Shown here piece after piece: positions 2,541 to 64,000 of a stretch of DNA of 64,000 nucleotides (positions within the stretch are counted from its first letter, which is position 1; each line of letters begins with the position of its first letter). Made by a program: the position numbers and the translations under genes. The notes under the pieces were generated by a model. It was given only the letters and a program-made list of their open reading frames with translations, did not search any database and was not told the origin of the DNA. This DNA comes from Gossypium raimondii (lineage: Eukaryota; Streptophyta; Magnoliopsida; Malvales; Malvaceae). The stretch is taken from positions 48,245,980 to 48,309,979 of the forward strand of contig NC_068575.1 in NCBI RefSeq assembly GCF_025698545.1, written 5' to 3'.

Positions 2541-3891
2541 ATAACCCTGGTTCACATTATTCATACTTCCGTACTCAGCTGGCCGGTCGCAAAACTACAT
2601 CGTTTTTTAATACCAGTTCATGCCAACATTCAAAAGACAGGTAAATACTAAACAGTACCCTAAACCCATAATTTATGAAAGCTTTGAACATTTCTTTCAA
2701 AAAATAAAAAACAAAAGCTTTCAAAATAAATAAAAAGCTTTGAAAGGATTTGATGTTAATTGATTGAAATAAAAAAAGATAATTTTTTGTAAAAAAAATT
2801 AATAAATATTATTATAAGAATTTGTATACCTTTTAGTATTTTATTTATATTTCTTTAAAAATAAATATTTATTTAAAAAAAGTTACATCCTTAAAAAAAA
2901 AAGAAGATAATTTGCCAAAGTGAAACTTAAATCAAAATCATGAAAAATTTCAACTCAAGATATTATTTACAACCAACAGAGATGTTTATATATATAATCA
3001 CAAGATATTTTGTTTATTGACACCTGCTTATGTCATGAGATAGAACTTTAATGTCATGGGACTAGAACTTTAGTCTAGTAAACTATGCGACCTTAGGCGA
3101 TTTTCTAGGTTCAAATTTACCTAAGTTAGCTTTACTCTCGAAAAATGAGAATTTTCGTATAAATTCTCTAAGATATCGAAGTAAAAATCCATGAATAAAC
3201 AGAAAAGCCATAAAAAAATAGCGCATGTCAAGTGTTTGAGTAATACTCTCAAAAGTATTCTATTACTTTAAGGTTTACAATTGAGTGATTACGAACAAGG
3301 GGAATGTCTCTATTTATAGTTGAGCTCTCACAAATCCAATGGTATAGATCGAATTACATCGACGACTAAGATTAATGTCTATCTACAATATGAGACTTCT
3401 AAGGATTTAAACTATATACATTACAATAATTATACTGGTAACTCTAGTTTTACTAGAGTGCTCCATCGGGTTACTAAGGCTTTAAGTAAATGAGTTTTTC
3501 AATGTGTTTCACGAATCAGACCAGTGCAAATGATTTAAATGAGCGTCATTTAATCAATTGACTTCTATGAAACACACTTTGCACATTCGTCATGAGCTTT
3601 AATTCGTGGCCGCCCGTGACACTTAACGACTTAATTTATTATTTTGAAAGATGGAAATAAAACGAAATCCCGTTTTTGCTAAATTCAAAATGGGACGGCA
3701 GGGAGAGTCTCAAGGGTTTTAGTTGAAGTCTCCTCTCCACCACCCAAAATTAAATCCTCCTCCTAATAATTTCTTTTTCTTTCAGGATCATAATATTTTC
3801 CAGGAAAACAATTCCCTAAAGAAAAAATAAAAAATCATTCTAGGTATTATTGAAGATAAAAAAAAAAATTAAAGCTTTACAAAAATCAATA
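2541..3891. other. Intergenic stretch upstream of the AP180 gene
   Basis: I see no gene in this AT-rich stretch. Positions 3000-3640 have the feel of a degenerate retrotransposon LTR, including an imperfect inverted pair around AATGTGTTTCACG (about 3500) and GAAACACACTTTGC (about 3570), but no clean ends. The last 150 bases before the AP180 start are pyrimidine-rich (CTCCTCTCCACCACCC near 3730), as is usual for a plant 5' leader. No convincing TATA box was found. Confidence 0.4.
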
Positions 3892-6387
3892 ATGCCTAGC
3901 AAGTTAAAGAAGGCAATTGGTGCGGTGAAAGACCAAACCAGCATTAGCCTTGCCAAGGTCGTCAACACCAATTCCGCCAGCCTCGAAGTGGCGGTCCTCA
4001 AGGCCACCACCCACGACAAAGCCCCCTTCGACGAGCGTTATGTCGATGAAATCCTACGAACCGTCTCCTCCAACAAGCTCTTCGCGGGGATCGCCGCCCG
4101 TGTCATCGCCAAAAGATTAGGCAAAACAAAGAATTGGGTCGTCGCCCTCAAATGCTTGATGCTTGTCCTTCGCATTTTCCAAGATGGCGACCCTTATTTC
4201 CCTAAAGAAGTCCTCCATGCAATGAACCATCGAACCAATATCCTGAATCTCCCCACTTTCAGAGATGAATGCAGTTCCAGTCCTTGCGATTACACCGCTT
4301 TCGTCAAGTCCTTCGCCTTCTATCTCGAAGAACGCTTGGAATGCTTCCTCACGGGGAAGCTTCAAAGGCGATTCACGTTCAAAGAGAAACAACTTAGCCA
4401 TCCCAGGGCACGTCGAGCTAACCAACAACCTGTTCGACACATGAAGCCCCCCATGTTGCTCGATCGGATTTCCTATTGGCAACGGTTGCTTGCTAAAGCT
4501 ATTGCCACAAAGCCCATAGGTTCAGCCAAGACGAACCGCTTGATCCTGGTTTCCTTCCATGCTATCGTACGAGAAAGCTTCGATCTTTACAGGGACATAT
4601 CTAACGGGCTCGGTCTTGTCTTAGATGGTTTCTTTCATTTGCAGCATCAATCATGCGTTAATGCCATCAATTATTGCGTCAAAGCCAGCAAACAATTCGA
4701 AGAGCTTTCGAGTTTATACGAGTATTGTAAGAGCTTGCCAATTGGGAGAACCTCGGATTATCCGAGTGTGCAGAGGATATCAGAGGAGCTTATTGAGACA
4801 TTGAAAGTGTTCTTAAAAGACCAAGCTTCGTTCCCATCAGCTGGGATATCACCACCTACGAAACCACATCGTTTGCTTCGTCTCCTAACGTCAGCCGCCA
4901 AGGATCTCTCGCTTTTGGAGATAGAATCTCAGGCCGGTTCGAGCTCGATTGTTTGTACATCGTTGGAAGAATTGATGAATCAAGATGAAGAACCTGTTGT
5001 AACAATGAGGTCATCTTTCTCGACGGGGACTTTCTGGGAGTTGTCTGAAAAACAGTATCGCGAGCAAGAAGATTCGTATAATGCCGCTGAAACTGGCTCC
5101 AACCATTCCTTACCCATTGATCAAGATCAAAATACGAGTTTAGATTTTATATCCTTCGATGAGTGGCCAGCAGTAGATGCTAATAAAACCCAAGGACAAC
5201 AAAGTTCAGAGCCATCATCGTCTTCAGCTAATGGTGACAAGGGCTGTTGGGAACTTGCTTTAATAGAGCCCACGCCGTCGCCACAACCTGTGCCACAGGC
5301 TTCCCAAAACTTGGCTAATAATAACTCTTTCTTCGGCAACTGGTTTCAGCAAGACCAAGCTTCTCAAAATGGAGCTAATGGTGCCTCTTTTCCCTACAAT
5401 TGGTTTCAAGAAGATCATAGAAATGATCAGCAAGCTTCTCGAAATGGAGCCAATGGTTCCTCTTTTACCAACAGTTGGTTTCAAGAAGATCATCAAAATG
5501 ATCACCAAGCTTCTCAAAAAGGAGCCAATGGTGCCTCTTTTACAAACAATTGGTTTCAAGAAGATGTTAGAAATCATCAGCAAGCTTCTCAAAATGGAAC
5601 CAATGGTGTCTCTTTTACCAACAGCTGGCTCCAAGAAGATCTTAGAAATCAACAGGCGTCTCAAACTGGAGTCAAGGTTCATTCATATATCGATGACTGG
5701 CTACTGCAACAACACCACCAACAACAATGGCAAGCTTCCAATGATGTAGCCAATGGCCATACGTGTTTCGATGACTGGTTAAAGGAAGATAAAAGTCCAG
5801 AGCATGCCCCTAATCAAATTGTCGTATCCAATGGCCGCTCTTATTTCGATGATTGGTTTCAAGCAAACCAAAGAGACCAAGAAGAACGAAAATCAGATTC
5901 GAATTGGAGCAACAATGGCGGTAACGAAAGCTGGGAGCTTGTGTTGGTAGAAGGCACAACGCCACCTTCACAAGCTTCTCAACATTTAGCCGACGGAATC
6001 CAACCTTCAATGGCGAATAATTTATTTGATCACAGACCCATAGTGCCTCAACGCCAATATAATCCATTTCTCGAAGATGAAACGAATATATCAGCAGCCA
6101 TTGCAACCACTGTTGCTGGTTTCCAAGAAAGGTTCTTCCCAATGGAACCAACATTTCATGCAACACCAACTTTTTACGCTCAAAGTTGTAATATTGAAAT
6201 ACCGACTCCAACGTTTCATGCGATGCCAGGTTCGGTTTCCCAGCATCCTAATGGGACAACAACAACAGGGTTTCAGGGTGGTGAAACTGGCGAGCCTTTC
6301 GCTCCATGGCCAACTATGAAAGCTAACAACAATGTGTCAGTGGATCAACAAAATGTATTATTTCAACGACAGTTGTGGTTGCAGTGA
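3892..6387 (+). CDS. AP180: AP180-type clathrin coat assembly protein (ANTH domain)
   Basis: This is an endocytic adaptor that binds phosphoinositides at the plasma membrane and promotes clathrin cage assembly. The single-exon frame encodes 831 residues. It starts at the ATG giving MPSKLKKAIGAVKDQTSIS, the conserved N-terminus of plant AP180; an upstream in-frame TTG at 3850 is not a plausible start. Residues 1 to about 290 form the ANTH domain, with the KLKKAIGAVKDQTS lipid-binding helix, TKNWVVALK, LRIFQDGDPYF, a DYTAFVKSFAFYLEERL helix and SFDLYRDISNGL. The tail is long and unstructured. It contains two WEL-L-E motifs (CWELALIE and SWELVLVE), a YNPFLED motif with an NPF tripeptide at about 724-726, and a glutamine/asparagine-rich block of 25-residue repeats (about 489-663). 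Arabidopsis AP180 is roughly 650 residues, so most of the extra length is this repeat block. Family assignment is strong; the role of the repeats is unknown. Confidence 0.93.
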   Translation: MPSKLKKAIGAVKDQTSISLAKVVNTNSASLEVAVLKATTHDKAPFDERYVDEILRTVSSNKLFAGIAARVIAKRLGKTKNWVVALKCLMLVLRIFQDGDPYFPKEVLHAMNHRTNILNLPTFRDECSSSPCDYTAFVKSFAFYLEERLECFLTGKLQRRFTFKEKQLSHPRARRANQQPVRHMKPPMLLDRISYWQRLLAKAIATKPIGSAKTNRLILVSFHAIVRESFDLYRDISNGLGLVLDGFFHLQHQSCVNAINYCVKASKQFEELSSLYEYCKSLPIGRTSDYPSVQRISEELIETLKVFLKDQASFPSAGISPPTKPHRLLRLLTSAAKDLSLLEIESQAGSSSIVCTSLEELMNQDEEPVVTMRSSFSTGTFWELSEKQYREQEDSYNAAETGSNHSLPIDQDQNTSLDFISFDEWPAVDANKTQGQQSSEPSSSSANGDKGCWELALIEPTPSPQPVPQASQNLANNNSFFGNWFQQDQASQNGANGASFPYNWFQEDHRNDQQASRNGANGSSFTNSWFQEDHQNDHQASQKGANGASFTNNWFQEDVRNHQQASQNGTNGVSFTNSWLQEDLRNQQASQTGVKVHSYIDDWLLQQHHQQQWQASNDVANGHTCFDDWLKEDKSPEHAPNQIVVSNGRSYFDDWFQANQRDQEERKSDSNWSNNGGNESWELVLVEGTTPPSQASQHLADGIQPSMANNLFDHRPIVPQRQYNPFLEDETNISAAIATTVAGFQERFFPMEPTFHATPTFYAQSCNIEIPTPTFHAMPGSVSQHPNGTTTTGFQGGETGEPFAPWPTMKANNNVSVDQQNVLFQRQLWLQ
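5356..5880 (+). repeat. 75-bp in-frame tandem repeats in the AP180 tail
   Basis: The AP180 gene contains back-to-back copies of a 75-bp unit starting CAAGCTTCTCAAAATGGAGC. Copy starts fall at 5356, 5431, 5506 and 5581 (exact 75-bp spacing), then at about 5653 and 5731 with 72 and 78 bp, and more diverged copies follow. Each unit encodes about 25 residues of the form QASQNGANG-SF-N-WFQED--N. The period is a multiple of three, so the frame is kept. Later units change the core to DDWL and DDWF. Confidence 0.9.
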
Positions 6388-20273: not shown

Positions 20274-20751
20274 ATTAATTGAGATGGGGTCTGAAAATAT
20301 TCTTTTGAATTTTACATGCACTCTACCACAACAACATCTTCATTTGCGTCATCAATTCTTCATTCCATTCCCAATGGCATGTAAAATTTTTCTGCACTTA
20401 ATTTGGACAAAGCCAACAGCTAACTTTGGGTATCTCTATGAGCCCAAATTCCTCGAGGGACCGATGAGTTGATCACATTTTTCCTTCTTATTGAATTGGT
20501 ATTATAAATTAATTCAATATTAATTTAAAATTAATGGTCACATCATCATAAACAATTACATTTAGTACTCTCATTTATATGTACTTACATGTTTAAATTT
20601 TGTTTTACTTACAATTTAATATTTTTTTTAATTTTAATATCGTACATATTTCATGTGTTATTATTCTTAATTAATTTTAAACCATAATTTCATTATTTAT
20701 TGCATCTTATTTTTAAACACACATTTATGTTCTAAATATGTAATTTTCATA
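20274..20751. other. 3' flank of the RING gene
   Basis: This is AT-rich non-coding sequence. The open frame covering 20083-20472 in another frame is a shadow of the RING gene plus its 3' end. The 3' untranslated region of the RING gene should lie in the first 200 bases. Confidence 0.4.
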
Positions 20752-56000: not shown

Positions 56001-56025
56001 AGAGATCCTTACAAAGTGAAAGAGT

Positions 56026-56717
56026 ATGTGTGAAAATAAAATTAATCATGACTTCCAAAAGCACAATATTCAAGTTCCTGAATTCGATGGCAAAAATTAT
56101 GATTTTTGAGCAGTTAAATTGGAGACATTATTCACTTCCTAGAATGTCTTGGGGTTTGTCAATGAGGGCTATGGAGATTCAAAAGATGCTACAAAAGAAT
56201 AACATGAAGAATTAAAGAATAATAAGATTACGAAGGCCGAAGTTTTCGAGATGATTCAAAGAGGAGTCTCATTCCATATTTCCTAGAATGATAAAGAGCA
56301 AAAAAATCCAAAGAAGCATGAATATTCTACAACAAGAATTCGAATAAGACACAAAAGTGAAAGTTGTTAAACTTCAATCTCTCAAAAGAGATTTTGAGAA
56401 TGAAAAAAATGAAAGAACATGAAAGCATAAATGAATATCATAATAGATTGTCTACGTTGGTGAATCAAATGAAGGCACATGGAGACACAATTGATGATCG
56501 TAGACTTGTTGATAAAATTCTAATAAGCTAGACAGAAAAATTTGATCCTATGGTAGTCGTTATTGAAGAAACTAAAGATCTATCAACTATGATTGTTCAA
56601 CGATTAATGGGTTTACTAAGATCTTATGAGCAAAGATTGTTACGTCGCTTAAAAAAATCCAATCCAAGCTTACCATTGATCTTAAGAATGATGGTATAAC
56701 GATCTGAAAGTTAGTGG
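56026..56717 (+). pseudogene. Copia gag, N-terminal part, interrupted
   Basis: The gag frame starts MCENKINHDFQKHNIQVPEF, then DGKNYDF followed by TGA where the family has tryptophan (TGG). The text continues AVKLETLFTS and GYGDSKDATKE, and further on HESINEYHNR-like and LTIDLKNDG pieces. Several more stops and frame changes are present. The frame is then cut by a Gypsy-like LTR at 56718. The rest of gag resumes at 63768. It is a dead copy; the gag retains the UBN2-type fold signature. Confidence 0.8.
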
Positions 56718-56829
56718 TGTTGGAAATGGAGGTTTCAGAATTCTGTTTTTCGATAATAAAGTCAATAAATATTATTTATTAATATTTACAAGAGTATTAC
56801 AGTATTAAACTGAAGCTCGCAATACACCA

Positions 56830-57195
56830 AAACAGGCTTTTAGCGGCATTTTTAGTGGCGTTTGGACAAAAAACGCTGCTAAAAATCGAGCATTAGCGGC
56901 GCTCAACATAAAACGCCGCCAAAGATCGAGCATTAGCGGCGCTTTCAGAAAAGCGCCGCTAAAAATGAGCATTAGCGGCGTTTTTTGAAAAAACGCCGCA
57001 AAAAACCTAAGCCCAACGGCCCTGTTTTCTGACCTTTTGGGGCTTTGGCGTTTTCTCAAAAGCGCTGCTAATGCTCTAGCTTTTAGCGGCGTTTTTAATA
57101 AAGCGTCGCTAATGCTCAAAGCTTTAGCGGCGTTTTTAGGAATGCGCCGCTAATGCTCAGACCTTTAGCGGCGCTTTTCAAAAAGCGCCGCAAAA
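56830..57195. repeat. Left subterminal repeats of the CACTA element
   Basis: This array contains short palindromic units of the form TTAGCGGCGTTTT---AAAACGCCGCTAA, repeated about every 30-60 bases in both directions. Subterminal repeats like these are where CACTA transposases bind. They form the open frame at 56805-57119 by chance. Confidence 0.85.
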
Positions 57196-57479
57196 ACATT
57201 TTACATGTCTATTTACTATTTAATTTGTTTATTTATATTAATTAAAATTCAATTTATTTTTAATTAAATATTTTTTTTAAAATGGATCAATTTAAAATAA
57301 TAACACGTAGAAATAATTTGAAATAAAAAACATAAAAAATATTTGTTAAAAATGGAAAAATTAAAATACTATTATTTAAAATAATTTTAAAATTTTTGGG
57401 TACATGACTGATTGGTTTTAATTTATATATTAAATAATTTCATATATAATTGTAAAAGATACGATAGTATTAATTTTAA

Positions 57480-58130
57480 AATATTTAATTAATTATCATT
57501 ATAGTTTAGGGTTTAACATATATGGTTTAAGGTATATGGTTAATTTAGGATTTAAGGCCGGTTTAAGAGTTACAATTTTAAGGTTTATAGATTATGGAAT
57601 TAGGGACTATGGATTAGGGATTTTGGTTTAAGGGTTGTGATTTAGGGGTTAAGGGTTAGGGGTTAGAGATTAAGAGTTAGGGATTTAAGGTTTATGGATT
57701 CGGTGTCAGGTTAGGGTTTAAGGTTTAGATTAATTAGTGTGTTTTAATTTATATTAAATAAGGTTTAAGTGTTAGGGGTTAGGGATTCGGGTTAGGGTTA
57801 GAGTTTAGGATTTAGATTGATTAGTGTTTTTTAATTTATATATTAAATAAGGTTTAGGGCTTAATAGTCAGGGGTTAGGGGTTAAAAGTTAAGAGTTAGT
57901 GATTTAGGGTTTAGAGATTTGGGGTTGGGTTAGAGTTTAAGGTTTAGATTAATTAGTATTTTTTAATTTATATATTAATTAAGTTCTTATATAATTGTAA
58001 AAGAGGGGTTAGGGGTTAAGGGTTAGGGGTTAGGGGTTATAAGTTTATGTTTTATGATTTAGGGTTTAGGAGACATGGGTTTAAGGTTTAGATTAATTGG
58101 TATTTTTTAATTTATATATTAAATAATTTC
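57480..58130 (+). repeat. Telomere-like GGTTTAGGG/GGGTTA block
   Basis: This stretch is rich in degenerate TTTAGGG and GGGGTTA units (for example GGGTTAGGGTTAGAGTTTAG and GGGGTTAAGGGTTAGGGG). It is broken by recurring copies of GATTAATTAGT-TTTTTAATTTATATATTAA (near 57735, 57820, 57955 and 58100). It therefore has a higher-order repeat of roughly 100-140 bases. It lies inside the CACTA element and is not a telomere. Confidence 0.7.
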
Positions 58131-58700
58131 TTATATAATTGTAAAAGAGATAATATTAATTTTAATATATTAAAATTATTATTATAGTTTAAATTATTTA
58201 AGAGATAATAGATCAATTTTATATATATTAAATGATTTAGGATTTAAGGTTTACTTTAGATTTGTTTTATTATAGATCAATTTTATTATAGTTTAAATTA
58301 TTAAATGGTTTAAATTATTAAAATATACTATATTTATTTTGAGAGTACTTGATTTTTTTAATAAAAATCCAGTTTATAAAAAATAGTTATAAAAAATATT
58401 TTATAAAATCACATAACTAATAATTTTTAGTAGATAAAATAAAAAAATTTTAACTGAGCAAAACGACATCGTATTGATCAAAATAAAATAAATTTTTTAT
58501 GGCGTTTTTATGAAAATTGCCGCAAAAGATAAGCAATTGCGGCGTTTTTATAAAAAACGCCGCAAAAAAAAACATTTTACTTCAAAAAAAATGGCGCCAT
58601 TTTATCCCTAAATTCCCCCCTGAAGCCCCTAATTTTCCCCCTAAAAATAATCACCTCAGCACACTATTACTCCCTCAGCTCTGCGCGAAATCCTAAAGCA

Positions 58701-59013
58701 ATGCCTCCCAAAGTAGCTAAATCCCTAGAAACAACGAACTCGCCTTCAACCTTCTTCTTCAAACCAGGTCCCCCTCTCTCTCTTGCTCTCTCTTTGCTTT
58801 TTTGCCTGATTTTTTTTTCTTAGATGAGTCCCTGGATGGTTGGAGTCTTATTGTTTCAACAAGGCAAGTGGGTGTTCCAAATCCATCATTGAAGCTGGAA
58901 ATACATATTTCCAAGATTTTAGGCAGTTTTTCTTGGTTGTTTTATGGGCTTAAATCGAAGCCGTTTAAGATCTTCTGCTCCGTTTCACTCCAAGCCTTTG
59001 TTTCGTAGACATC
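58701..59013 (+). other. Possible first exon(s) of a chimeric transcript in the CACTA element
   Basis: An ATG at 58701 opens MPPKVAKSLETTNSPSTFFF, with a possible donor near 58766 (CCAG/GTCCCCC). A second piece from about 58823 (DESLDGWSLIVSTRQ) follows a T-rich tract and a TTAG acceptor. The CT-rich upstream sequence is leader-like. I do not recognise the protein. It may be a third captured gene's start, possibly joined to the XRN exons by splicing, but this is inference. Confidence 0.35.
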
Positions 59014-59230
59014 TTCAATCCATGAAGTAAGTTCCTTTTTCCAAATCTCTGTCCTTTTTTCTGTTTTCCTGATTTTTGAGGCACTTATTGTTTGATTATT
59101 TGTTGATTATGGGATCTGGGTACTCGGATATCTATAGCAAAGTCAATTTAAGCATGTGTTCTGTTTATTTTCTTTGGCCTACTTTAGTGGACTAAGATCA
59201 TGCACTCTGCTTATTGTTGAAACACGACAG

Positions 59231-59909
59231 GATGCTGATTTAATTATGTTGGCCTTGGCCACTCATGAAGTTCACTTTTCAATCCTTCCAGAGGTTCATA
59301 TATTTTACTTTGCAAAATTAGAACTTGTTATTTGCTTCATCTTTGCAGTTCTTGAACATATGGACCCTTAGGGAGTATCTGGAATATGAGATGAGAATCC
59401 CCAATCCTCCTTTTGAAATTGACTTGGAACGCGTTGTGGATGATTTTATATTCATATGCTTCTTTGTTGGCAATGATTTCTTACCTCATATGCCTACACT
59501 CGAGATTCGTGAGGTTTGTATGTTGAAGTAATTATTCTATTGTTGGGTTGTATTTTTATATTGTGATTTTGAATGTAACTTTAGGGCTTTTATATGAAGC
59601 CAAGGTTTTAATTGAAAGCCTTCCCCTTTTCAATTTGTTAATTTCAGGATGCAATCAACTTGTTAATGGTAGTATACAAGAAGGAATTTAGATCATTTGG
59701 TGGTTATTTGACTGATGGAAGCAAGGTGCCTGTTGATCTTATGTGTGATGGCCACTTATTATTCCAGTCATCAAATTTCATCTAGTAAACTAAAGCTTTT
59801 GACTGTATGATTTTTATTTCAGCCTAATTTGAGCAGGGTAGAGAATTTTATCCAAGCTGTAGGGTCCTATGAAGATAAAATATTCAACAAAAAAGCACAG
59901 TTGCATCAG
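59231..59909 (+). pseudogene. Captured XRN 5'-3' exoribonuclease fragment, four exons
   Basis: Four exons with intact GT-AG borders (59231-59293, 59349-59513, 59648-59725, 59823-59909) join without a break to 131 codons. They read [90 protein letters not shown] and PNLSRVENFIQAV. This is the central catalytic part of nuclear/cytoplasmic XRN exoribonucleases, including the DAD and VGNDFLPH-P signatures carrying acidic metal ligands. The N-terminal part and the whole C-terminal part are missing. It lies inside the CACTA element, so it is a transduplicated fragment and not a working enzyme. Intact introns show capture from genomic DNA, not from mRNA. Confidence 0.85.
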
Positions 59910-60986
59910 GTTTGTTTGAGTTTAGGATCAATATGATTCTCTTTAACTGAAACAAAAAATTAGTTTGTATTTAGCTTTTATCTGTGATCCAAATTATTCT
60001 GGAAAACTTGCGAATGGTCTTACCTTGTGAGTCAGTAGTCTCTTTCTATTTCATTCTGCATGTGGTATTCATTATGTGTTCAATCCTCTTTCATATGCCA
60101 ATTGATTTAGATTTAGGCAATATTCATTTCAATGATGAAGTAGTGTTAGGTTTTTCTTCTTTGTTAGCTAATATTAATTTTAATCTGCTGGTTTTAGCTG
60201 CCTGTTATTTGATTAGATTGTTGGTTATGCTGGCTTGAGTTGTGAATCTGGTGAACAAAGAACTTGCATAAAATCTCTTTAGTTTCTTTCTTTTTAAAAA
60301 TCATTAACTATAACTTTACTAGTAAGAAATGAGAAATATCAAACCCACCACTTCTCAATATCCGAGCATTTAACTTTACTAGAATACCTTGTGCTCTTGG
60401 CAACATTTGGCTGCCCCTACATTTCTTAAATTTTTTTTCTAATTCAAATTCATATTTACTGTTTTTTGAACAAAAATTAATAATAATTTTGTTTTGTCAT
60501 TTCTTCTAATATTAATAACTACCTACTTATACTATATTAGAGAATCAAATATTCACCGAGTCAATGGAGTATATAATTTAAATAAATTATCCTTGAGATA
60601 GTACCGAACCAGTTTTCCTCTTTGAAATTGCTTTAACTAGTGAAATGCTTCGGTAGTTTGCTATCTTTGTGGTGGAAATTATTGATGTCTATTTTGGAAT
60701 TTGGAGCTATAATTTCATTTTTTTTATATGCAATTTTATTTTTATTATTTTTCTTTTATACAGGATGAGAACCGGTATAGTTTAAGCAATCTCATTAATG
60801 TCTTGTTTTATTCTTCTTGAAATTCGAAGAATCAGTTATTTAAGTGTTTTCATTCAGTTTACATGTTTACCTCTGTTTCTCTGAGTTTCATATTTAACTA
60901 ATCCATATTAATTGGTGGTAAATTCATGTTTTGGGCACTAATCAATTTTAACCAAATTATCTAACTGTAATTTGTACTGCTTCCAG

Positions 60987-61150
60987 ACTTTCAGCAACAT
61001 GATCCCAAAATTGTCAAGCAAATTAGCCAAATGCGGGTGAATCACCTTGGACTAAATTTGACCAAAGATGATCTGCAAAACGTGGTTGATTTAATGGAGC
61101 CATATGGTCAGATAAGCAATGGAATAGAATATCTAAATCCTCCCCTTGAT
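60987..61150 (+). pseudogene. Captured exon of an FtsHi-type chloroplast protein
   Basis: A 164-bp exon with an AG acceptor (CTTCCAG) and a GT donor (GAT/GTCAGT) reads FQQHDPKIVKQISQMRVNHL, then GLNLTKDDLQNVVDLMEPYG and QISNGIEYLNPPLD. I recognise this as a segment of the plant FTSHI5/EMB2458 group, catalytically inactive relatives of the chloroplast FtsH protease. The exact paralogue is from memory. Only one exon is present, downstream of the XRN exons and within the same CACTA element, in the same orientation. Confidence 0.65.
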
Positions 61151-61814
61151 GTCAGTAACTAACTTGCTTGTCATTTTAAATATGCAAGTCAATTGCTATT
61201 AATAATTTTCTGTTGGATTCTTTTTGGACTAAAAAATAATTTCTGGGGATAGTCTAAGAATCTTAAATTTTATAGAAAGCCAATAAAGTGCTTGCTGGAC
61301 GAAATGTGGTGATTAATTGAATTGCAAGGTCATACATGCTGTTAATTTTTTAAGAGCTGATAAATGAGTATGACATAGTGCTCATAAATGTTCTAAGGAT
61401 GTCTTTAGATGAATGAAATTGTTTGATAGTTTGAAGTTATAAATCTTTGTATTGATTTTTCTCAACAATCAAGCCTGTTATACTTAGCAAATTTTTCGTG
61501 AGAATGGGTGTTTAACAGTTGTGAATTGTCTTGAAATATATGCGGTTGAGATGGTTGATATATTATCAAGCATGCAATATATATCACTTGGCGTGACAAG
61601 TTTTTATAGGATATATTTGAAATGGGTGCAATTTATATCCTTGTTACATGGAAATATATATTTAGCTTTAAAGTTAAAATTTTAATAGAAATTTTAATTT
61701 AATTAATATTTTTATCCTTAAAAGTATATAGTTTAAAGTTTAAATTTCAAAAAAAATATATATAATATTTATCATACAAATAAATATTATTTAATTAAAA
61801 CATTTTTTTAAAAG

Positions 61815-62160
61815 TCATGTATTTAGTGGCGTTTGTCAAAAAAGCGCCGTTAAAAGTTATCTTTATAGTGGCGTTTATTGTAGAAGCGTCGCTAAAGGTC
61901 ATGATCTTTAGCGGCGTTTGTGTTAGGAGCGCTGCTAAAGATCATGACCTTTAGCGGTGTTTGTGGGACAAGCGCCGCTAAAGGTCTTGGTCTTTAGCGG
62001 CGTTTGTAGGAAAAGCGCCGCTAAAGGTCTTGGTCTTTTGCGGCGTTTGTGGAAAAAGCGCTGCTAAAGGTCTTGGTCTTTAGTGGCGTTTTTTTCAGCG
62101 ACGCGGTCTTTAGCGGCGTTTTTTCCGGCTCTTCTCAAAGCGCCGCTAAAAGCCTGTTTT
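61815..62160. repeat. Right subterminal repeats of the CACTA element
   Basis: About eight tandem-like units of the form GGTCTTGGTCTTTAGCGGCG, TTTGTGGGA--AAGCGCCGCTAAA are present. They mirror the left subterminal array but are more regular. The last unit leads directly into the right terminal repeat. Confidence 0.85.
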
Positions 62161-63767
62161 GGTGTAGTGTCGGTCTAATAATTTCGGTTATTTGAACAGT
62201 TAGATAAGGTACAAGTGTATCTGTTCTAAAGTAAGTGGTTTTAGAAATTGAGGTATCAGGACCTCATTTCTGTAAATCGGACCTATAAATATTTTTATTA
62301 AATATTTACAGAGTTATATTAGAATTTAAATTTTGATTAGATAATTTCGTTGAATTAGTGCTTAATTTAAGTACAGAGACTAAATCTTATAAGAGTCAAA
62401 AGTTGAATTATAATTACATCATAAAGTAAAACATAACTAAGTGACTCATAAGGTTAAACCATTGGTTTAATGAAAGTGGACGATAATGAATGATGTTATA
62501 AAAGAAAATGTAATAAAATTAATAAATAAAACAAAACATAAAGTTATAAAATAAAAACAAAATAAATAACAGATGGTATAGTGGATTGAAAGACAAATAT
62601 TATTCTCTTTTCATCCAAACCATTCGAAGTAAAAATAAAATGAAGAAAGACACACAACACTAAGGGTTTCAAAAGTTTCAAGGTTTAATTGGTTAGTCAA
62701 TTTAGTTCATTTTCTTGTAATTTTTATGTTTTTGGAACCCTAGTAATACGAGTTGGCTAACCTATATAGTATTTTTTGGTATTATTCTAGACTGAAGATG
62801 TTTTCATTGTTAAATAATTGAAGTTTGAGGTGTTATTTTGATAGATTTTAAGGTTATAAGTGAAATATGACTAATTTGTAAAGTCAATTGATGATTTTGT
62901 ACAATAAGGATTAAATTGTGAAAAATTTGTAATTTGGGGTGTAATTAAGAAATAGGAAGTCCTATAGGGACTCTAAGAAATTTGACATAAAGTTTGGGGG
63001 GTTAATTGTGAAAGTTATATTAGTCTCGGTTTTAGAGGTTAAATTGAATAATATGCAAAAGTTGTATAATTTAGTAATTGAATGTGAATTGGGCTGTTTA
63101 GTGTTAATTTATTATTATTTTTTAATCCATAGCAAACATTGACCCAAAATCCTCGAGAAAGAAAGGAAAAGACAAGGTCGTCAATAAATAGCTCGGAATT
63201 TATAGTTTGAATTTCTATAACATGAACCTTTTCAATTGTTGCATTCACAAACTGCGCTACATGGTAATAACATGATGTAAGTTGGAAATGATAGGACGAG
63301 CTGAATTGAACTGATTCGAATTCGTTGTTTGTGATAAGGACTAAATTGAATAGATTTGAAAATATAATATATTATTATAATTGTGCAATTGAGTTCAATT
63401 AGTGATGAATTATGCTGTCACATATGTGATTGATTGATGAATTATATTATAGAACTGAGAAATTGAGTATATTGAAATTGAAACAAGAGTGGATAGTGGA
63501 TATCAGTTCATAAGCTCGAAATTAGGGATTTGATATTGTACAATTTAATCAATTCGATTGAGATAAGGAAAAATGCATATGTTGCAACTATGATAGCTCA
63601 GTTTAATATATGTAAATAGATTGAATAGCACGATATACTTGCTTGTATGTGATGAATTGATATTTATTTGAGATTTTGATAAATAAATTGCATGCAATTG
63701 TTTGATATTTGTTTGTAGCATTCTATTACTTGGGTCCGATGATCGGACTGGGACAATGGGTGTTACA

Positions 63768-64000
63768 GATGGGAGATCTTTAATACAAAACAAAGGCGAG
63801 CCTTCTGGAGGTGACAAATTTGGAAGAGGTCGAGGCAGAGAAAGAAATTCACGTGGACGGGGTAGAAGCAACAACAGTGGTACACAAGGAAATGGTGGTA
63901 GATCCAATAAATGGTATGGAATTTGTAAAAAGAATAGTCATGAGGAGATGGATTGTTGGAATAGAGGCAAGCCACAATGCTACAATTTCAAGAAGTTCAA
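63768..64000 (+). pseudogene. Copia gag, zinc-knuckle part, continues beyond the window
   Basis: After the LTR the Copia frame resumes: GRSLIQNKGEPSGGDKFGRG, RGRERNSRGRGRSNN, then CKKNSHEEMDCWNRGKPQCY. This is the basic arginine/glycine linker and the start of the CCHC zinc knuckle of Copia gag. The first knuckle cysteine appears lost. The frame is the downstream continuation of the gag broken at 56717; pol should follow outside the window. Confidence 0.8.

Follow-up and report, generated by a model that had tools for sequence, protein, structure and literature searches.

A Pack-CACTA element of cotton that carries exons of a host XRN gene, and dispersed elements with parts of the same gene

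The sequence analysed (G000:C11:48245980-48309979) is a 64-kb window of a genome of 750.8 Mb in 281 contigs. It contains a 5350-bp CACTA element which encloses a segment of a host XRN gene, an exon resembling FTSHI5 and possibly a piece of a third gene; the features, with the evidence for each, are as follows.

56817–56819, no strand: left target-site duplication (TSD), TCG (read from the sequence, end search)
56820–62169, plus strand: non-autonomous CACTA element of Pack-CACTA type, 5350 bp (TIRs, TSD, frames, Pfam)
56836–57194, no strand: left subterminal repeats of TTTAGCGGCGTTTTT type, spaced by about 40 bp
58701–59026, plus strand: possible third gene fragment, exon-like, beginning MPPKVAKS (weak matches, E 0.046–0.17)
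59145–60094, plus strand: host XRN segment, exons and introns, about 950 bp, parent L046 (tblastx, alignment with the parent)
59231–59293, plus strand: XRN exon a (DADLIM..., end of XRN_N), 21 codons (Pfam, splice check)
59294–59348, plus strand: shortened intron, site of a 385-bp deletion (alignment with the parent and two exon-keeping copies)
59349–59513, plus strand: XRN exon b (FLNIW...VGNDFLPH...EIRE), 55 codons (Pfam, splice check)
59648–59725, plus strand: XRN exon c, 26 codons (splice check)
59823–59909, plus strand: XRN exon d, 29 codons (splice check)
60987–61150, plus strand: exon similar to FTSHI5, an inactive chloroplast FtsH (PDB 8xku_C, E 3.9e-19); start at 60987 or, with the inner AG, at 60995
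61808–62155, no strand: right subterminal repeats of TTTAGCGGCGTTTTT type, spaced by about 43 bp
62170–62172, no strand: right TSD, TCG (end search)

A target-site duplication of 3 bp is a trait of the CACTA family. The window copy has the traits of the CACTA (En/Spm, CMC) superfamily, that is, CACTA TIRs, the 3-bp TSD and subterminal repeats; its right terminus at 62169 is an exact CACTA-type end with zero mismatches, and the left one at 56820 (CAATACACC...) has one mismatch to CACTACACC / CACTACACCAAAACAGGC. A Pfam scan of five element frames (77–114 aa) detected no CACTA transposase, and two stop-to-stop frames of at least 95 aa exist between 56820 and 62169; since the frames scanned do not encode the transposase that marks an autonomous CACTA element and long frames are few, the element is read as non-autonomous. 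It carries host coding DNA whose parent is located elsewhere, on C5, and is a Pack-CACTA element, non-autonomous and with host-gene cargo.

The four XRN exons (21 + 55 + 26 + 29 = 131 codons) are each preceded by AG and followed by GT, and they form a single frame with zero stops, as the first-pass annotation of this DNA had stated. Together they match the Pfam profile XRN_M with an E value of 1.1e-39 (profile positions 2–86 of 443), and a search of the PDB with their translation gave 14 distinct matches from the XRN family (best E 4.2e-37). The first 21 residues correspond to the extreme end of XRN_N, positions 220–240 of 241, with an E value of 3.5e-4 and a score of 20.5 bits, which is under the cut-off of 22.9. 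The active site is thus only partly present, the fragment beginning at the DAD motif. A functional XRN has a complete catalytic XRN_N domain in addition to XRN_M, and the fragment does not; since nearly all of XRN_N is missing, an active nuclease would be excluded. When the window was searched by tblastx with the locus of the parent and with a more distant XRN locus (L040), XRN exon homology was confined to 59145–60094, inside the element, and no complete XRN gene extending in both directions was found in the 64 kb; the proposed capture of XRN exons by a CACTA element was borne out by this confinement together with the ends and the TSD. The remaining matches were short, covering 13–25 residues at 21.7–24 bits with the parental locus and 11–32 residues at 21.7–29.9 bits with L040. 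Positions 20556–20750 match positions 1072–1264 of L040 with up to 46 bits; this part of L040 precedes the start of the gene (MGVPAFYRW at 1875), so these matches are not XRN exons.

A DNA search of the genome with the XRN fragment gave at least 20 matches, the window included. Alignment to the host XRN loci, suggested earlier as a way to find the source, identified L046 on C5 (about 22.726 Mb) as the parent among the loci retrieved: over 949 aligned bases its identity to the window copy is 97.0%, versus 77.7% over 942 bases for its paralogue L047 (C5, 15.137 Mb). L046 is a separate, longer XRN gene, the conserved exons of which start with MGVPAFYRW and flank the captured part on either side, and its similarity to the element is limited to the XRN segment. 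Noncoding divergence from L046 is 3.06% (17/556) for the window copy and reaches 3.77% (29/770) in the most divergent copy, L045. Three other XRN loci, L039, L040 and L041, are less closely related; by similarity L046 groups with L047, and L039 with L040. From plant sequences, the L046/L047 pair is presumably XRN4-like; XRN4 is the cytoplasmic paralogue of XRN2 and XRN3 and lacks a nuclear localisation signal.

The parent contains an additional exon of 49 codons (CFICGQMGHIAANCEG) between exons a and b, which we take by its pattern to be a CCHC zinc knuckle. The four exons described at first are present and in frame, but they are not contiguous in the gene: the CCHC exon and flanking intron are absent from the window copy, from L042 and from L043, and are kept in L044 and L045. 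The distance between exons a and b is 440 bp in the parent and 55 bp in the window, a deletion of 385 bp, and at the junction the alignment reveals a 5-bp microhomology (AAAAT) in the parental sequence. All five parental exons consist of whole codons in one frame, the introns between them being of phase 0; the frame consequently stays open despite the loss of an exon, and for the same reason an open frame is no sign of selection. Retention of frame and motifs is what is expected from the youth of the copy and from phase-0 introns.

Ten elements were examined, five of which (the window copy and L042–L045, subfamily A) are located on C8 (three), C11 (the window) and C12 (one). Both ends were found for seven of the ten, six of them having identical 3-bp flanks; the exception is L043, the right end of which is degenerate. 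For the other three a single end lies within the DNA retrieved. CACTA ends thus surround the related copies as well. The left border of the XRN segment is common to all five A copies and the right border to four; in L045 this side is affected by a small deletion, past which its sequence agrees with that of the others. The five elements of subfamily B (L048–L052) contain a 404-bp stretch of this XRN gene (positions 3844–4247 of reversed L046; 96.5–97.3% identity), so that at least ten elements hold part of it. The piece in B contains the CCHC exon which the window copy has lost and stops within the VGNDFLPH exon, short of that motif; in four of the five B elements the left part is about 80% similar to that of the window element. 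At two sites (reversed L046 3965 and 4164) A and B have the same change, differing there from the parent as well as from the paralogue; the support for a joint A+B branch is 53%, and a single capture or two both fit.

Counting the window itself, the genome holds at least 18 matches to the FTSHI5-like exon, and its presence beside the XRN exons makes the window copy a multi-gene Pack-CACTA. Two of the places with this exon, 99% identical, lie 3.6 kb apart on C13 (5.598 and 5.602 Mb), and in L044 on C12 it is part of a tandemly duplicated stretch of about 491 bp (L044:5929-6915, approximate limits). The exon-like piece at 58701–59026 is present in all five A copies, with a deletion of 57–58 bp in L043; a SWEET-like identity was considered for it and rejected, the similarity being below threshold.

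Whether the captured exons are maintained as protein was assessed from the parent and the five A copies, among which 24 sites of the four exons vary. Sixteen changes are copy-specific, 14 nonsynonymous and 2 synonymous, with 12.8 of 16 nonsynonymous expected under neutrality; the neutral lower-tail probability is 0.86, and under the constraint between L046 and L047 (omega 0.164) 14 or more nonsynonymous changes have a probability of 1.1e-4. The other eight sites fall outside this comparison, two being shared by two copies (one nonsynonymous, one synonymous) and six common to all five (three of each). Sites fixed between parent and copies include positions 4313, 4402, 4464 and 4599 of reversed L046. 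Pairwise dN/dS to the parent, a Ka/Ks-type check run on the five copies, ranges from 0.18 to 0.66 and is below 1 throughout (window 0.43, L042 0.18, L043 0.50, L044 0.34, L045 0.66). L042, the least changed copy, differs from the parent by three nonsynonymous and four synonymous changes, fewer nonsynonymous ones than neutrality would suggest (P 0.034), a count that takes in the parent's own constrained branch, for instance site 4474, where the copies agree with the paralogue. The copy-specific ratio of 14 to 2 led us to reject selection on the protein in these copies, with the dN/dS values and the count for L042 pointing the other way. Sister copies are damaged further: L043 has lost a splice donor (GT to AT), and in L045 the CCHC exon is interrupted by an in-frame TGA; this copy also has a 9-bp duplication and reads IGND in place of VGND. 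The four exons themselves have no stop codon in any of the five A copies, an outcome with a chance of 0.47 for 16 random point changes (55 of 1179 possible changes make a stop). Judged from the DNA, the XRN piece is in decay and nothing points to a use of its protein, which is ordinary for such elements; we infer that it has no protein function in the plant, and a functional protein from the captured exons is not upheld.

The first-pass annotation had also raised the possibility of a chimeric protein. In the form considered here the XRN exons would be joined to neighbours such as the FTSHI5 exon, and for the soybean element Tgm-Express1 splicing of element exons into host transcripts has been described (PMC1947982). 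In the window copy, the one copy checked for this, splicing from exon d to the inner AG at 60994 would keep the frame open through the FTSHI5 exon, with a stop following; the outer AG, by contrast, gives an out-of-frame join as read from the sequence (its context is TTGCAG in three of the four other A copies, TTGTAG in L044 and TTCCAG in the window). Upstream, 6 of 262 ATG–GT pairs, each tried as a single intron, lead into exon a in an open reading frame, adding 11–26 upstream codons, but none of the six has a donor of the GTAAG type; the GTAAGT donor at 59027, which follows an ATG-led piece from 58944, joins exon a out of frame, and read without splicing, the frame that leads up to exon a contains stops. 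Among the 262 pairs no well-formed frame leading from upstream pieces into exon a was found. A short peptide could begin at an ATG within exon a. As the neutral-looking copy-specific changes also speak against it, and with splice and stop damage in the sister copies, a chimeric product is very improbable and the suggestion was dropped.

It has also been considered that the fragment acts as RNA, its transcripts or 21–24-nt small RNAs silencing or tuning the parental XRN gene. Perfect matches to the parental exons are frequent (213 of 313 exon 21-mers and 200 of 301 24-mers), the 21-mers matching L039, L040 and L041 with 0, 1 and 0 and the paralogue L047 with 41; moreover, since at least ten elements carry part of the gene, there would be many possible RNA sources. 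However, perfect 21-mers are the default outcome of 97% identity, and blastn of the parent against the ten elements found the fragment in a single orientation with no inverted duplication, so that no hairpin source is evident. Such an effect is thus unlikely, and the more specific form of it, in which the Pack-CACTA family with its two subfamilies would feed small RNAs that lower the XRN gene, would be a long shot. RNA decay components have been suggested to attenuate RNA silencing, as described in PMC6101400; if the RNA effect were true, the element would act on the balance of decay and silencing that itself controls the element. Least probable by far is that the exons are the remnant of a local XRN gene, or of a tandem-duplicated pseudogene, hit by a CACTA insertion. 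The XRN segment retains both exons and introns, which also means that it is not a retrocopy; but its homology ends at 59145 and 60094, within the element, and in four other elements (three on C8, one on C12) the segment recurs with an identical left border. A local gene or pseudogene is refuted by borders common to dispersed copies.

Preferred, with a probability of about 90%, is that a Pack-CACTA element took up five consecutive exons of the XRN gene and spread, that a sub-lineage lost the CCHC exon, and that the exons are neutral passengers of an element moved in trans. A non-autonomous Pack-CACTA (a transduplicating CACTA) would have acquired the exons when host DNA was trapped between two CACTA ends, through aberrant excision or repair or through neighbouring elements moving together; aberrant excision or co-mobilisation of neighbouring elements has been proposed for Pack-CACTA elements (PMC8903248; reviewed in PMC13317346). 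The element with five XRN exons would then have spread to at least five sites, and the sub-lineage that includes the window copy would have lost the CCHC exon through the deletion at the 5-bp microhomology, the captured exons probably drifting neutrally all the while. Dispersed copies with TSDs suggest that a transposase from another element mobilised the family in trans. On the capture reading, the steps are visible side by side in one genome, that is, the parent, the five-exon form, the form with the deletion, and subfamily B, the piece of which overlaps. It also follows that, where introns are of phase 0 and the copy is young, finding captured exons in an open frame says little about function.

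With respect to known systems, TIR sequence and host genes differ here from those of the Pack-CACTA and Pack-TYPE elements described in PMC8903248, and in mechanism no difference from that description was found. Tgm-Express1 of soybean is likewise a CACTA element (5.7 kb) with host fragments that include exons, introns and splice sites; it is inserted within an intron of the host's flower-colour gene, into whose transcripts it is spliced (PMC1947982), whereas the window element is known from DNA alone. CACTA elements of Chenopodium also contain pieces of host genes, which according to the account in PMC8978399 lie upstream of the element's TAD domain, whereas here the scanned frames have no transposase domain. 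No report of XRN capture by a CACTA element, or of Pack-CACTA in cotton, stood out among the top-listed literature, in which few subscription journals were covered.

Outside the element, the flanks at 56003–56700 and 63740–64000 resemble, by eye, degenerate gag pieces of Copia type; as such pieces occur on both sides, the CACTA element may have inserted into an older retrotransposon.
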